Positions 32,784 to 37,057 of a stretch of 64,000 bases of DNA are shown here, in pieces. Source of the stretch: Streptomyces sp. NA04227 (GTDB lineage: Bacteria > Actinomycetota > Actinomycetes > Streptomycetales > Streptomycetaceae); the NCBI RefSeq assembly GCF_013364195.1, contig NZ_CP054918.1, forward strand, positions 3,957,001-4,021,000, written 5' to 3'. The translations under genes were made by a program, and so were the position numbers. Numbering within the stretch: position 1 is the stretch's first letter; each line of letters begins with the position of its first letter. The notes beneath the pieces are model-generated. The model searched no databases and was not told where the DNA came from. It saw only the letters and a list, made by a program, of their open reading frames with translations.

Positions 32784-34127
32784 TCAGCGGGTGGCGCCGG
32801 TGACGATCCACCGGCCGGAGCGACTGCGGAGCCAGAGGGTCAGCATCCGTATCACCATCGTCAGGATCAGTGCGGCCCACAGGGCGGTGAGTCCGCCGCC
32901 GAATCCCGGTATCAGCAGGGCGAGCGGGGTGAAGAGCGCCAGCGTCGGGACCATGGCCCAGGCCAGATAGCGGCCGTCGCCCGCACCCATCAGCACACCG
33001 TCGAGTACGTAGACCACACCGCAGACCGGCTGGGCGAAGGCGACCAGCAGCAGCGCGGGCAAGGCGGTGTCCTCGACCGCGGAGTCACCGGTGAACAGCG
33101 GGATGTAGAGGGGCCGGGCGAGCAGTACGAGCACACCCAGTACCGCTCCCGAGGCGATGCCCCACTGGATCATGCGGCGGCAGGCCTCGCGCGCGCCCTT
33201 GGCGTCGCCCGCGCCGAGATAACGGCCGATGATGGCCTGCCCGGCTATCGCGATGGCATCGAGGGCGAAGGCCAGCAGGCTCCACAGGGCGAGGACGATC
33301 TGGTGGGCGGCGACATCCGCGTCGCCGAGGCGGGCCGCCACCGTGGTCGTGATGATCAGGATGCCGCGCAGGGAGAGCGTACGGATCAGCAGTGGCGTGC
33401 CCGCCTGGGCGCAGGCGCGGATTCCGGCGGCGTCCGGGCGCAGCGAGGCACCGTGCCGCCGGGCGCCGCGCACCACAACGGCGAGGTAGACCGCCGCCAT
33501 CCCCCACTGCGCGAGAACGGTTCCCCAGGCCGAGCCCGCGATACCGAGATCGGCGCCGTAGACCAGGACGACATTGAGTACCCCGTTGGCCACGAAACCG
33601 GCGACGGCGACGTACAGCGGCGTCCTGGTGTCCTGGAGTCCGCGCAGTACACCGGTCGCGGCGAGGACGACGAGCATCGCGGGGATGCCGAGAGCCGAGA
33701 TGCGCAGATAGGTGGTCGCATGCGGGGCGGCGGTGGACGAGGCGCCGAAGAGGTCCACCAGTGCCGAGGCCGTGCACAGCAGGAACAGCAGGACCGCCGC
33801 GCCGAGCAGCAGGGCGAGCCAGATGCCGTCCATGCCCTGGCGGATGGCCGCCCGCAGATCTCCGGCGCCGACCCGGCGGGCGACGGCGGCGGTGGTGGCG
33901 TAGGCGAGGAAGACGAAGATGCTGACGCCGGTGGTGAGCAGGCTCGCGGCGATGCCGAGTCCGGCGAGTTGGGCGGTGCCCAGATGGCCGACGATCGCGC
34001 TGTCGACCATCACGAAGAGGGGCTCGGCGACCAGCGCTCCGAAGGCCGGGACGGCCAGCGCGATGATCTCTCGGTCGTGCCGTTTCGGGCCGGCCTCGGC
34101 CGCCGCGGGAGCCTGTGTCATGGGCAT
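32784..34127 (-). CDS. MATE family efflux transporter (DinF-like)
   Basis: A polytopic multidrug/toxin exporter with about 12 membrane segments, 447 residues from the ATG at 34127 (GGAAG site 9 nt upstream; a second ATG lies 6 bp further in). Typical MATE features are ALAVPAFGALVAEPLFVMVDSAIVGHLGTAQLAGLGIA at the start and the repeat of this pattern in the second half (LALWSLLAFALDAIAIAGQAIIG). Position between rplI and dnaB is conserved in streptomycetes. Substrate unknown. Faces away from the dnaB upstream region. Confidence 0.9.
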   Translation of the reverse strand: MPMTQAPAAAEAGPKRHDREIIALAVPAFGALVAEPLFVMVDSAIVGHLGTAQLAGLGIAASLLTTGVSIFVFLAYATTAAVARRVGAGDLRAAIRQGMDGIWLALLLGAAVLLFLLCTASALVDLFGASSTAAPHATTYLRISALGIPAMLVVLAATGVLRGLQDTRTPLYVAVAGFVANGVLNVVLVYGADLGIAGSAWGTVLAQWGMAAVYLAVVVRGARRHGASLRPDAAGIRACAQAGTPLLIRTLSLRGILIITTTVAARLGDADVAAHQIVLALWSLLAFALDAIAIAGQAIIGRYLGAGDAKGAREACRRMIQWGIASGAVLGVLVLLARPLYIPLFTGDSAVEDTALPALLLVAFAQPVCGVVYVLDGVLMGAGDGRYLAWAMVPTLALFTPLALLIPGFGGGLTALWAALILTMVIRMLTLWLRSRSGRWIVTGATR

Positions 34128-34582
34128 CAATGTAATCTTCCACAGGTAAGAGACGCAATGCCGCAGTGGTCATTACCACTGTGCGGTGCGCGCGGCCGCT
34201 CGGGTGGCCACCAAAACGATCTCGCCCAGCGCGGAAAACTTTCTTCTCTGCACAGCCGGTGGATGGTGAATGAGCAGGTCAGAGGCCGTTCTCTGGATGA
34301 CCTTGAACATTGTTCACAAGGCTGTCCACCGGCTCGTGCACAGGTTTCGCGGGGTTCTCCACAGAGTAAGGCCGTTCATCCACACCACCTGTGGATAACC
34401 AGATTGGCTGACGGTGCCGAGGGGCCTACCGTGGAGCGGCACCCGTTCCCCGGAGCCGCTCGGAAAGCGCACAAAACCGACGCGGTCCGCTGTGGAGTCG
34501 GGTGCCCTGTGTGTCAGTGCCGTGCCGTAAGAAAGATGGGGCACGGAGGTCCAGCCGGCGGCCGAGAGAAAGGGGGCGGGCG
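34128..34582. other. dnaB upstream region
   Basis: A 455-bp divergent region without genes. It contains several DnaA-box-like nonamers: TTGTTCACA (34310-34318), TTCTCCACA (34355-34363), TCATCCACA (34376-34384), and the reverse complement of the perfect box TTATCCACA at 34390-34398. Promoters for the MATE gene and dnaB are expected here. Confidence 0.6.
34390..34398 (-). promoter_or_regulatory. Perfect DnaA box (TTATCCACA)
   Basis: TGTGGATAA on the plus strand, equal to TTATCCACA on the minus strand, the consensus DnaA box. It lies 185 bp upstream of the dnaB start with three imperfect boxes nearby. Confidence 0.6.
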
Positions 34583-37057
34583 GTGAGCATTTCCGAACCC
34601 CCCGTCCAGGGCCCCTGGGCCGACAGCGACGGCGAACGGCTGCCCGGCTCCCGGCGCCGCGACACCGACCAACGCGGCCGCGACAACGGCCGGCGCGGGC
34701 GCGACAACGGGCAGCGCGGGCGCGAGGACCAACACGACCGGGGTCAGGACGACTCCGGCTGGGACAGCGGCGGCCCGGCCGCCTTCGAACGCGTTCCCCC
34801 GCAGGACCTGGACGCCGAGCAGTCCGTCCTCGGCGGCATGCTCCTGTCCAAGGACGCCATCGCCGACGTCGTCGAGGTCATCAAGGGCCACGACTTCTAC
34901 CGGCCCGCGCACGAGACGATCTTCCAGGCCGTCCTCGACCTGTACGCGAAGGGCGAGCCCGCCGACCCGATCACGGTCGCCGCCGAACTCACCAAACGCG
35001 GCGAGATCACCCGCGTCGGCGGCGCCTCCTACCTGCACACCCTGGTGCAGACCGTCCCCACAGCCGCCAACGCCGAGTACTACGCCGAGATCGTCCACGA
35101 ACGCGCCGTACTGCGCCGCCTCGTGGAGGCCGGCACCCGTATCACGCAGATGGGATACGCGGCCGACGGCGACGTCGACGAGATCGTCAACAGCGCCCAG
35201 GCCGAGATCTACGCCGTCACCGAGCAGCGCACCAGCGAGGACTACCTGCCGCTCGGCGACATCATGGAGGGCGCCCTCGACGAGATCGAGGCGATCGGCT
35301 CCCGCAGCGGCGAGATGACCGGAGTCCCCACCGGCTTCACGGACTTCGACTCCCTGACCAACGGCCTGCACCCCGGGCAGATGATCGTGATCGCGGCGCG
35401 GCCGGCCATGGGCAAGGCCCTCGCCCTCGACACCCCGCTGCCGACACCGACCGGGTGGACGACCATGGGTGAGGTCACGGTGGGAGACCACCTGATCGAC
35501 GCCCAGGGCAGGCCCACCCGCGTCGTCGCGGCCACCGACATCATGGTCGGGCGACCCTGCTACCGCCTCACCTTCGACGACGGCACCACTGTGATCGCCG
35601 ACGCGGAGCACCAGTGGCTCACGGACACCCGGGCGTCCCGCCGGGCCGCGTCGGAGAGTGGTCCCGGCCGACGTGCGTACCCCTCGGTGAAAACCACGAA
35701 GGAGATCGCCGAGACCGTCCGTCACCTCACCGACGGCCGGATCAACCACTCGGTCCGCAACGCGGCACCCGTGGACCTGCCCGAGCGCGAACTGCCTGTG
35801 GCGCCTTACACGCTGGGTGCATGGCTGGGCGACGGTCACAGCGCGGCCGCCCGGATCACTTCCGCGGATGCCGAGGTCCTGGAGCGGGTGGCGCGGGATG
35901 GCATGGGCGTGCTGGGCGACAAGCACATCCCGCAGGACTATCTGCGTGCCTCCCGCGCCCAGCGGCGTGCGCTGCTCGCCGGTCTGCTCGACACGGACGG
36001 GACCGTCACGAACGCCGGCTCCGTCCAGTTCACCTCCACCAGCCGGGCCCTCGCCGAAGGGGTCCGTGAGCTCATCGTCAGCCTCGGCTATCGCTGCGGC
36101 ATGGCCACCAGGCAGGTCAAGGGGCGCTCCGCGGAGTCCTCCACCGCCTACAACCTCAACTTCACGCCTTCCGACTCTGACGTCGTCTTCGGTCTGGAAC
36201 GCAAGCAGCGCGTACACGAGGAGCGTCGGCGGAAGGCCACACCGCGGCTGACGCAGCGGTACATCGAGCAGGTGGAGCTGATCGAGAGCGTTCCGGTCCG
36301 CTGCGTCCAGGTCGACAACGACGACCACATGTACCTGGCCACGCGCTCGATGGTGCCCACGCACAACTCGACGCTCGCCCTGGACTTCGCCCGCGCCGCG
36401 TCCATCAAGAACAACCTGCCGAGCGTGATCTTCTCGCTGGAAATGGGCCGCAACGAGATCGCGATGCGGCTGTTGTCCGCCGAGGCGCGGGTCGCGTTGC
36501 ACCACATGCGCTCGGGCACGATGACCGACGAGGACTGGACACGTCTGGCCCGACGGATGCCGGACGTCTCCGCCGCGCCGCTCTACATCGACGACTCCCC
36601 GAACCTGTCGATGATGGAGATCCGGGCCAAGTGCCGCCGCCTCAAGCAGCGCAACGAACTCAAGCTCGTCGTGATCGACTATCTCCAGCTGATGCAGTCC
36701 GGCGGCTCCAAGCGGGCCGAGAGCCGTCAGCAGGAAGTCTCCGACATGTCCCGTAACCTCAAGCTCCTCGCCAAGGAGCTGGAGCTCCCGGTCATCGCCC
36801 TGTCGCAGCTGAACCGTGGCCCGGAACAGCGCACCGACAAGAAGCCGATGGTCTCCGACCTCCGTGAGAGTGGCTCCATCGAGCAGGACGCCGACATGGT
36901 CATCCTGCTCCACCGCGAGGACGCCTACGAGAAGGAGTCCCCGCGCGCGGGCGAGGCGGACCTGATCGTGGCCAAGCACCGTAACGGCCCGACAGCGACG
37001 ATCACGGTGGCGTTCCAGGGGCACTACTCGCGGTTTGTGGATATGGCGCAGACGTAG
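34583..37057 (+). CDS. dnaB: Replicative DNA helicase DnaB with intein
   Basis: The 824-residue precursor consists of a 507-residue DnaB hexameric helicase interrupted by a 317-residue intein. The GTG at 34583 follows an AAGGGGGCG site. A charged, disordered leader precedes the N-terminal DnaB domain (VPPQDLDAEQSVLGGML). The RecA-like domain follows (GVPTGFTDFDSLTNGLHPGQ), with the Walker A written GRPAMGK / STLALD and split by the intein between Lys278 and the following Ser. After the intein come VIFSLEMG, LVVIDYLQLMQ (Walker B) and SDLRESGSIEQDADMV. It loads at the origin with DnaA and unwinds DNA. A terminator lies about 100 bp downstream. Confidence 0.97.
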   Translation: MSISEPPVQGPWADSDGERLPGSRRRDTDQRGRDNGRRGRDNGQRGREDQHDRGQDDSGWDSGGPAAFERVPPQDLDAEQSVLGGMLLSKDAIADVVEVIKGHDFYRPAHETIFQAVLDLYAKGEPADPITVAAELTKRGEITRVGGASYLHTLVQTVPTAANAEYYAEIVHERAVLRRLVEAGTRITQMGYAADGDVDEIVNSAQAEIYAVTEQRTSEDYLPLGDIMEGALDEIEAIGSRSGEMTGVPTGFTDFDSLTNGLHPGQMIVIAARPAMGKALALDTPLPTPTGWTTMGEVTVGDHLIDAQGRPTRVVAATDIMVGRPCYRLTFDDGTTVIADAEHQWLTDTRASRRAASESGPGRRAYPSVKTTKEIAETVRHLTDGRINHSVRNAAPVDLPERELPVAPYTLGAWLGDGHSAAARITSADAEVLERVARDGMGVLGDKHIPQDYLRASRAQRRALLAGLLDTDGTVTNAGSVQFTSTSRALAEGVRELIVSLGYRCGMATRQVKGRSAESSTAYNLNFTPSDSDVVFGLERKQRVHEERRRKATPRLTQRYIEQVELIESVPVRCVQVDNDDHMYLATRSMVPTHNSTLALDFARAASIKNNLPSVIFSLEMGRNEIAMRLLSAEARVALHHMRSGTMTDEDWTRLARRMPDVSAAPLYIDDSPNLSMMEIRAKCRRLKQRNELKLVVIDYLQLMQSGGSKRAESRQQEVSDMSRNLKLLAKELELPVIALSQLNRGPEQRTDKKPMVSDLRESGSIEQDADMVILLHREDAYEKESPRAGEADLIVAKHRNGPTATITVAFQGHYSRFVDMAQT
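35417..36367 (+). mobile_element. Class 3 intein with LAGLIDADG homing endonuclease
   Basis: A 317-residue intein inserted in the Walker A loop of DnaB. The first residue is Ala instead of Cys/Ser. The last residues are His316-Asn317, followed by extein Ser+1. The WCT triad of class 3 inteins is present: Trp67 two residues after the block B His, Cys296 at block F position 4 (VRCVQVD), and Thr315 before His316. A two-motif LAGLIDADG endonuclease is visible (LGAWLGDGH near residues 133-141; LLAGLLDTDGTV near 186-197), so the element may still be mobile. Class assignment rests on these residues and was not confirmed by alignment. Confidence 0.92.

Follow-up and report, generated by a model that had tools for sequence, protein, structure and literature searches.

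A class 3 intein in the DnaB helicase of Streptomyces sp. NA04227 that very likely still splices and probably no longer homes

The interrupted dnaB gene and its intein

The replicative helicase gene dnaB of Streptomyces sp. NA04227 lies in a stretch of 64,000 nucleotides, hereafter the window, in whose coordinates all positions are given, and it is interrupted by an intein (Table 1). The + strand reading frame 34502-37057 was recognized as dnaB by its matches to Pfam DnaB N (1e-36) and DnaB_C (1.9e-100) and by a TIGR00665 score of 540 bits against a cut-off of 385; the start is best read as the GTG of 34583, in comparison with the S. bluensis protein P0004. As the original prediction had it, the insert sits exactly between the Lys and the Ser of the Walker A loop, with junctions reading ...IAARPAMGK / STLALDF.... 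The source genome (one contig of 7.89 Mb), searched with the C-extein, gave a single dnaB match, thus no second, uninterrupted dnaB was found in it by this search.

Table 1. Features of the interrupted dnaB gene in window coordinates
Feature	Position	Strand	Remarks
dnaB, replicative helicase precursor	34583..37057	+	GTG start as read above; 824 aa = 507 extein + 317 intein
N-extein	34583..35416	+	ends ...ARPAMGK (Walker A Lys)
Class 3 intein	35417..36367	+	317 aa, A1...HN317, from translation
HINT splicing domain, N-terminal half	35417..35791	+	about residues 1-125, borders approximate
Cys48 codon	35558..35560	+	same position as redox partner Cys48 of M. smegmatis DnaBi1
H65 codon	35609..35611	+
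W67 codon	35615..35617	+
Remnant homing endonuclease	35792..36265	+	about residues 126-283, borders approximate
First LAGLIDADG motif	35813..35836	+	LGAWLGDG, residues 133-140, Asp139
Inferred deletion junction	35902..35903	+	residues 162/163; about 97 residues missing relative to full-length kin
Second LAGLIDADG motif	35972..36001	+	LLAGLLDTDG, residues 186-195, Asp194, in complete second domain 180-270
HINT domain, C-terminal half	36266..36367	+	Cys296 (36302-36304), Thr315, His316, Asn317
C-extein	36368..37057	+	starts with Ser+1 (Walker A Ser)

Sequence and fold place the intein in the known DnaB-b (Walker A) family of class 3. Position 1 is Ala, with no Cys, Ser or Thr nucleophile there, and alignment to the structures 6BS8 and 6RIX reveals the complete WCT motif, which is defined as Trp at B:12, Cys at F:4 and Thr at G:5 (PMC3196547): W67 stands two residues past the block B His H65, C296 falls on the block F Cys (F:4) of both structures, and T315 precedes the penultimate H316. 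The terminal N317 and the nucleophile Ser+1 are present as well. The original prediction had assigned the class from Ala1, Trp67, Cys296 and Thr315, and its residue numbers agree with the translation and with this alignment; a nucleophilic Cys or Ser at position 1, or a Cys296 away from F:4, either of which it had named as fatal, did not appear. Among solved structures, the class 3 DnaB inteins of M. smegmatis and M. chimaera come closest, with 57-58% identity over the splicing fold, and in a tree the intein groups with other DnaB inteins. Chance resemblance is set aside because the best match among solved structures has E = 1.4e-41, 483 of the 528 pattern stretches in species-representative genomes encode a relative, and 29 relatives carry the empty site.

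The intein very likely still splices itself out. By homology, Cys296, helped by His65 and Thr315, would attack the peptide bond before Ala1, giving the branched intermediate at F:4 through which class 3 inteins splice, the N-extein would be transferred to Ser+1 and Asn317 would cyclise, and the joined Lys-Ser would restore the Walker A loop, so that working DnaB in the cell would depend on splicing.

An active LAGLIDADG endonuclease cleaves the intein-free allele and has two complete domains, each with the order alpha-beta-beta-alpha-beta-beta-alpha. In the predicted model of the window intein, the first domain keeps the motif helix 130-139 and a helix 152-159, with no strand of at least three residues before residue 173, and the second domain is complete. 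The two catalytic Asp are 54 residues apart, versus 145-153 in the 65 full-length members among 194 distinct DnaB-b inteins (sampled as given below). Compared with P0003, its closest full-length kin, the window intein is missing about 97 consecutive residues after Gly162, a stretch that in the model of P0003 holds strands 426-431 and 436-441, a Cys-rich part and helices 507-512 and 516-522, this model being weak as a whole (mean predicted local distance difference test score, pLDDT, 59.3) with ten-residue blocks at 61-95 over 391-620. We infer that an in-frame loss removed the beta strands of the first domain together with a CxxC-rich stretch, and the DNA-cutting part of the intein is probably dead. 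The original prediction was right in counting two LAGLIDADG motifs, but its proposal that the element may still be mobile fails, because the predicted first domain has lost its beta strands.

In our view it is highly probable that this is a class 3 DnaB-b intein which still splices and no longer homes. The sequence marks, the predicted fold, the deletion, the single dnaB copy and the empty sites of relatives were observed, and the splicing chemistry and the loss of nuclease activity are deductions. With the strands of the first endonuclease domain deleted, the element would now be inherited vertically and would represent the degeneration stage of the homing cycle.

Upstream of dnaB and on the opposite strand, a MATE-type transporter gene occupies window positions 32784-34130 (-).

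Distribution and origin

Relatives were collected as 120 homologous proteins and 110 loci (L001-L030 and L061-L140). The proteins are 120 listed among 7567 matches to a query of intein residues 34-317 plus 34 C-extein residues; the 7567 may include intein-free DnaB, and only the 120 listed were used. Eighty of the loci, from the species-representative genomes, are the best by match to the short window intein, and none of these that pass our pattern has a full-length endonuclease. The pattern requires A1, D5 and PTHN, and for loci also H.W, while C48, D62 and C296 are not required. Under this pattern no intein was found in 2 of the 120 proteins (P0011 and P0025) and in 16 of the 110 loci, which were dropped, namely L019-L030, not at dnaB, and L106, L107, L133 and L138, which matched a looser dnaB pattern. 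The 212 passing rows comprise three in another gene and 209 which collapse to the 194 distinct DnaB-b sequences, a set in which the proportion of short to long forms is skewed by the shortness of the query intein.

The best 80 of the 483 relatives are from Streptomyces, Kitasatospora, Arthrobacter, Rothia, Nocardia, Nocardioides, Mycolicibacterium, Cellulomonas and others. Some match was found in 122 of 392 Streptomyces genomes, and among the best 30 loci 18 (window included) are dnaB inteins, the remaining 12 being not at dnaB. Since relatives are so common and a published survey counts 1701 class 3 inteins, 82.5% of them with LAGLIDADG motifs (PMC7891396), the window element is ordinary in kind. 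A limited literature search yielded no account of a class 3 intein in a Streptomyces DnaB, PMC5050341 being concerned, in the part consulted, with Streptomyces TdS inteins instead.

Class 3 inteins were also met in other genes. In the Streptomyces loci L019-L024, L027 and L028, a Walker A loop is interrupted by a distinct class 3 intein, which has Ala1, Trp, Cys and Thr and no Cys at 48. NCBIfam identifies the host gene as RecG in L019 and L027, and the shared flanking motif points to the same gene in the others. In L128, L130 and L136 (Pseudonocardia and Saccharopolyspora), inteins of the same class 3 type as that of the window, with Cys48 and 395-400 aa long, interrupt another ATPase at its Walker A loop, and over their first 69 residues they reach up to 84% identity with DnaB-b inteins. 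The host ATPases of L128 and L130 match AAA_10, their match to the conjugal-transfer ATPase TcpF falling far below the cut-off; a conjugative element could be a vehicle of intein spread.

The original prediction also pointed to a recent gain, a claim with evidence on both sides: the nearest sampled relatives are indeed empty, but the data do not reject a common origin with the S. bluensis copy. We hold a recent horizontal gain by this lineage to be a tentative possibility, somewhat short of an even case. The Walker A site is uninterrupted in all 29 same-genus relatives examined, of 36 found, and in 28 of the 29 nearest relatives by N-extein DNA, a set that has a few genomes in common with the former. 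The free extein tree likewise separates the window from L002, the closest kin compared at the DNA level, which carries an intein identical to that of S. bluensis, though the two inteins group together (100/95). Intein presence changes at least five times on the extein tree (47 rows), and forcing the exteins of all 18 carriers together was weakly rejected (p 0.035). However, forcing only the window and L002 exteins together was not rejected (p 0.408), and their synonymous divergence is alike, with pS 0.459 in the intein and 0.417 in the extein, and for these two reasons a recent gain is not called. The intein GC of 69.6% also resembles the 69.3% of the window; with GC at third codon positions (GC3) of 88.6% versus 92.6-94.8% in the exteins, foreign base composition was discarded as a sign of recent entry, these values being not decisive. 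Gain and repeated loss look the same in this sample because it contains no close sister species, the best N-extein matches being 87-92% identical.

Shortening of the endonuclease and the role of its remnant

Shortened endonucleases are frequent in the DnaB-b family. Below the top class of 145-153, the Asp spacing has a tail down to 31, and 129 of the 194 inteins have fewer residues between their motifs than a full-length member, short inteins being over-represented in this sample. Two or more CxxC motifs lie between the Asp in 65 of 65 full-length inteins, in 21 of 60 with a spacing of 75-139 and in none of 69 with a spacing under 75; the Cys-rich stretch (P0003 residues 453-509) matched no Pfam family in P0003 or P0014, the two full-length proteins scanned. 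Of the full-length inteins 61 of 65 retain both Asp, versus 75 of the 129 shortened ones (Fisher p 5e-8, with rows that are not independent); by spacing, the fractions are 38/69 (<75), 20/38 (75-99), 17/22 (100-139) and 61/65 (>=140). Viral class 3 relatives, with a spacing of 75-108, keep Asp139 in 77 of 80 and Asp194 in 80 of 80, so that inteins with a spacing of 75-139 may be intact, and a cut-off at >=140 for the full-length form was set aside. On a quick tree of the 194 rows, built without the columns in question, at least 41 changes between full and short are required. The starred, supported branches, which are less sure in such a tree, alone hold 25 independent pairs, hence at least 25 changes; these include cases with a spacing of 75-139, while the window intein lies below both cut-offs. 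Such counts carry no direction, deletion being the direction we infer, and a sign test for joint occurrence of shortening and Asp loss is no more than suggestive, with a median p of 0.02 (0.001-0.375).

In a more careful tree of 73 of the 194 sequences, whose bootstrap is not fully settled, the window intein, P0003 and the short S. bluensis intein P0004 fall into one clade (100/95), within which P0003 and P0004 are sisters (100/97). All three occupy the same site. The S. bluensis intein (P0004, L061), also closest kin, has a different deletion, with Asp139 changed to Gly and Gly195 of the second motif to Ala, and since the two deletions differ, the two inteins were shortened independently; P0003, unlike the window intein, keeps the full-length endonuclease. 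Between the window and L002, the ratio of nonsynonymous to synonymous divergence (dN/dS) is 0.11 in the splicing domain, 0.66 in the first-motif remnant and 0.23 in the second domain, a pattern that fits the homing-cycle model as given in PMC8966425.

That the shortened endonuclease is kept as a scaffold needed by the splicing fold, the remnant having a structural job, we regard as unlikely. The second domain is clearly constrained in Rothia inteins with a spacing of 45 (dN/dS 0.05-0.37, five usable of six pairs), which also tells against a simple decay story, and a mutualism of HINT domain and endonuclease is described in PMC8966425; yet the same domain is less constrained in five shortened Streptomyces pairs (L005/L006, L005/L015, L006/L015, L007/L013 and L004/L016; 0.51-0.73), though the pair L017/L018 has 0.37, and M. 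smegmatis DnaBi1 is reported to splice without any endonuclease domain (PMC6195587).

Several further observations weigh against an intein that splices and no longer homes. Both LAGLIDADG motifs with their acidic residues D139 and D194 are present, the second domain is only moderately relaxed, the P0003 model used for the deletion is weak, and the second domain of the full-length pair L009/L011 has a dN/dS of 0.80, noisy at a dS of 0.046; the contrast being not clean, dN/dS was rejected as a proof of decay. The window model also superposes over 297-304 of its 317 residues on PI-SceI, a VMA intein of class 1 with a LAGLIDADG endonuclease in which both domains are complete. Nevertheless, it is very improbable that the intein can still home, whether because two intact motifs suffice or because the second domain, being complete, acts as a homodimer like single-motif LAGLIDADG enzymes: although both Asp are kept, the spacing of 54 falls short of the lowest viral one, 75, the deletion of the first-domain strands and CxxC-rich stretch rules out a mobile endonuclease as the leading reading, and in a homodimer the second Asp should outlast the first, whereas the two are lost about equally often (22 against 21 among the 69 inteins with a spacing <75).

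For class 3 inteins, two LAGLIDADG motifs would accordingly be a poor sign of mobility, and the degeneration stage of the homing cycle becomes countable within one essential gene.

Cys48 and comparison with known inteins

On oxidation of M. smegmatis DnaBi1, Cys48 becomes linked to the catalytic Cys118 and splicing is blocked; seven substitutions of Cys48 abolished splicing, and the residue is termed "non-conserved" by the authors (PMC6195587). The window intein has both Cys48 and Cys296, the counterparts of the pair shown in that report to form a disulfide in DnaBi1. Cys occupies position 48 in 193 of the 194 DnaB-b inteins and in 75 of 80 viral relatives, in samples found with a Cys48-bearing query, which favours this residue, and in none of 12 weaker Streptomyces matches outside dnaB. 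The single DnaB-b exception, L079 of Cellulomonas sp. PhB150, has Thr and offers a natural test case for the need of Cys48 in splicing. Among ten named phages, Cys aligns there in five, one of them through a gapped, doubtful stretch, and Cys48 is ruled out as a universal class 3 mark. Judged from the alignments, Cys48 is a family trait of DnaB-b inteins, beyond what was described for DnaBi1; a limited literature search found its conservation undiscussed beyond the remark cited, as far as PMC6195587 was covered. This near-invariance gives a simple test of whether the mycobacterial oxidation switch is general. It is a rather doubtful idea that Cys48, rather than a redox accident of one species, might be an ancestral conserved element of a large class 3 lineage, with oxidation- or zinc-controlled P-loop splicing as a widespread brake on actinobacterial replication; if it were true, the Streptomyces DnaB described here would stall under oxidative stress until Cys48-Cys296 was reduced.

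Among the inteins of known structure, M. smegmatis DnaBi1 (6BS8, 6OWN; described in PMC6195587 and PMC7360933) has in common with the window intein the DnaB-b Walker A site, Ala1, Trp67, the block F Cys, the Thr, Cys48 and DxxH, and its zinc ligands C118, V119 and Y128 match C296, V297 and Y306 by offset. DnaBi1, however, is 139 aa long without an endonuclease domain, whereas the window intein has 317 aa with a truncated one. The M. chimaera DnaB1 intein (6RIX/6RIY), of class 3 and in DnaB as well, is 57-58% identical over about 130 splicing-domain residues and is described in PMC7664689 as a mini-intein of 145 residues without an endonuclease, while the window intein keeps a remnant of it.
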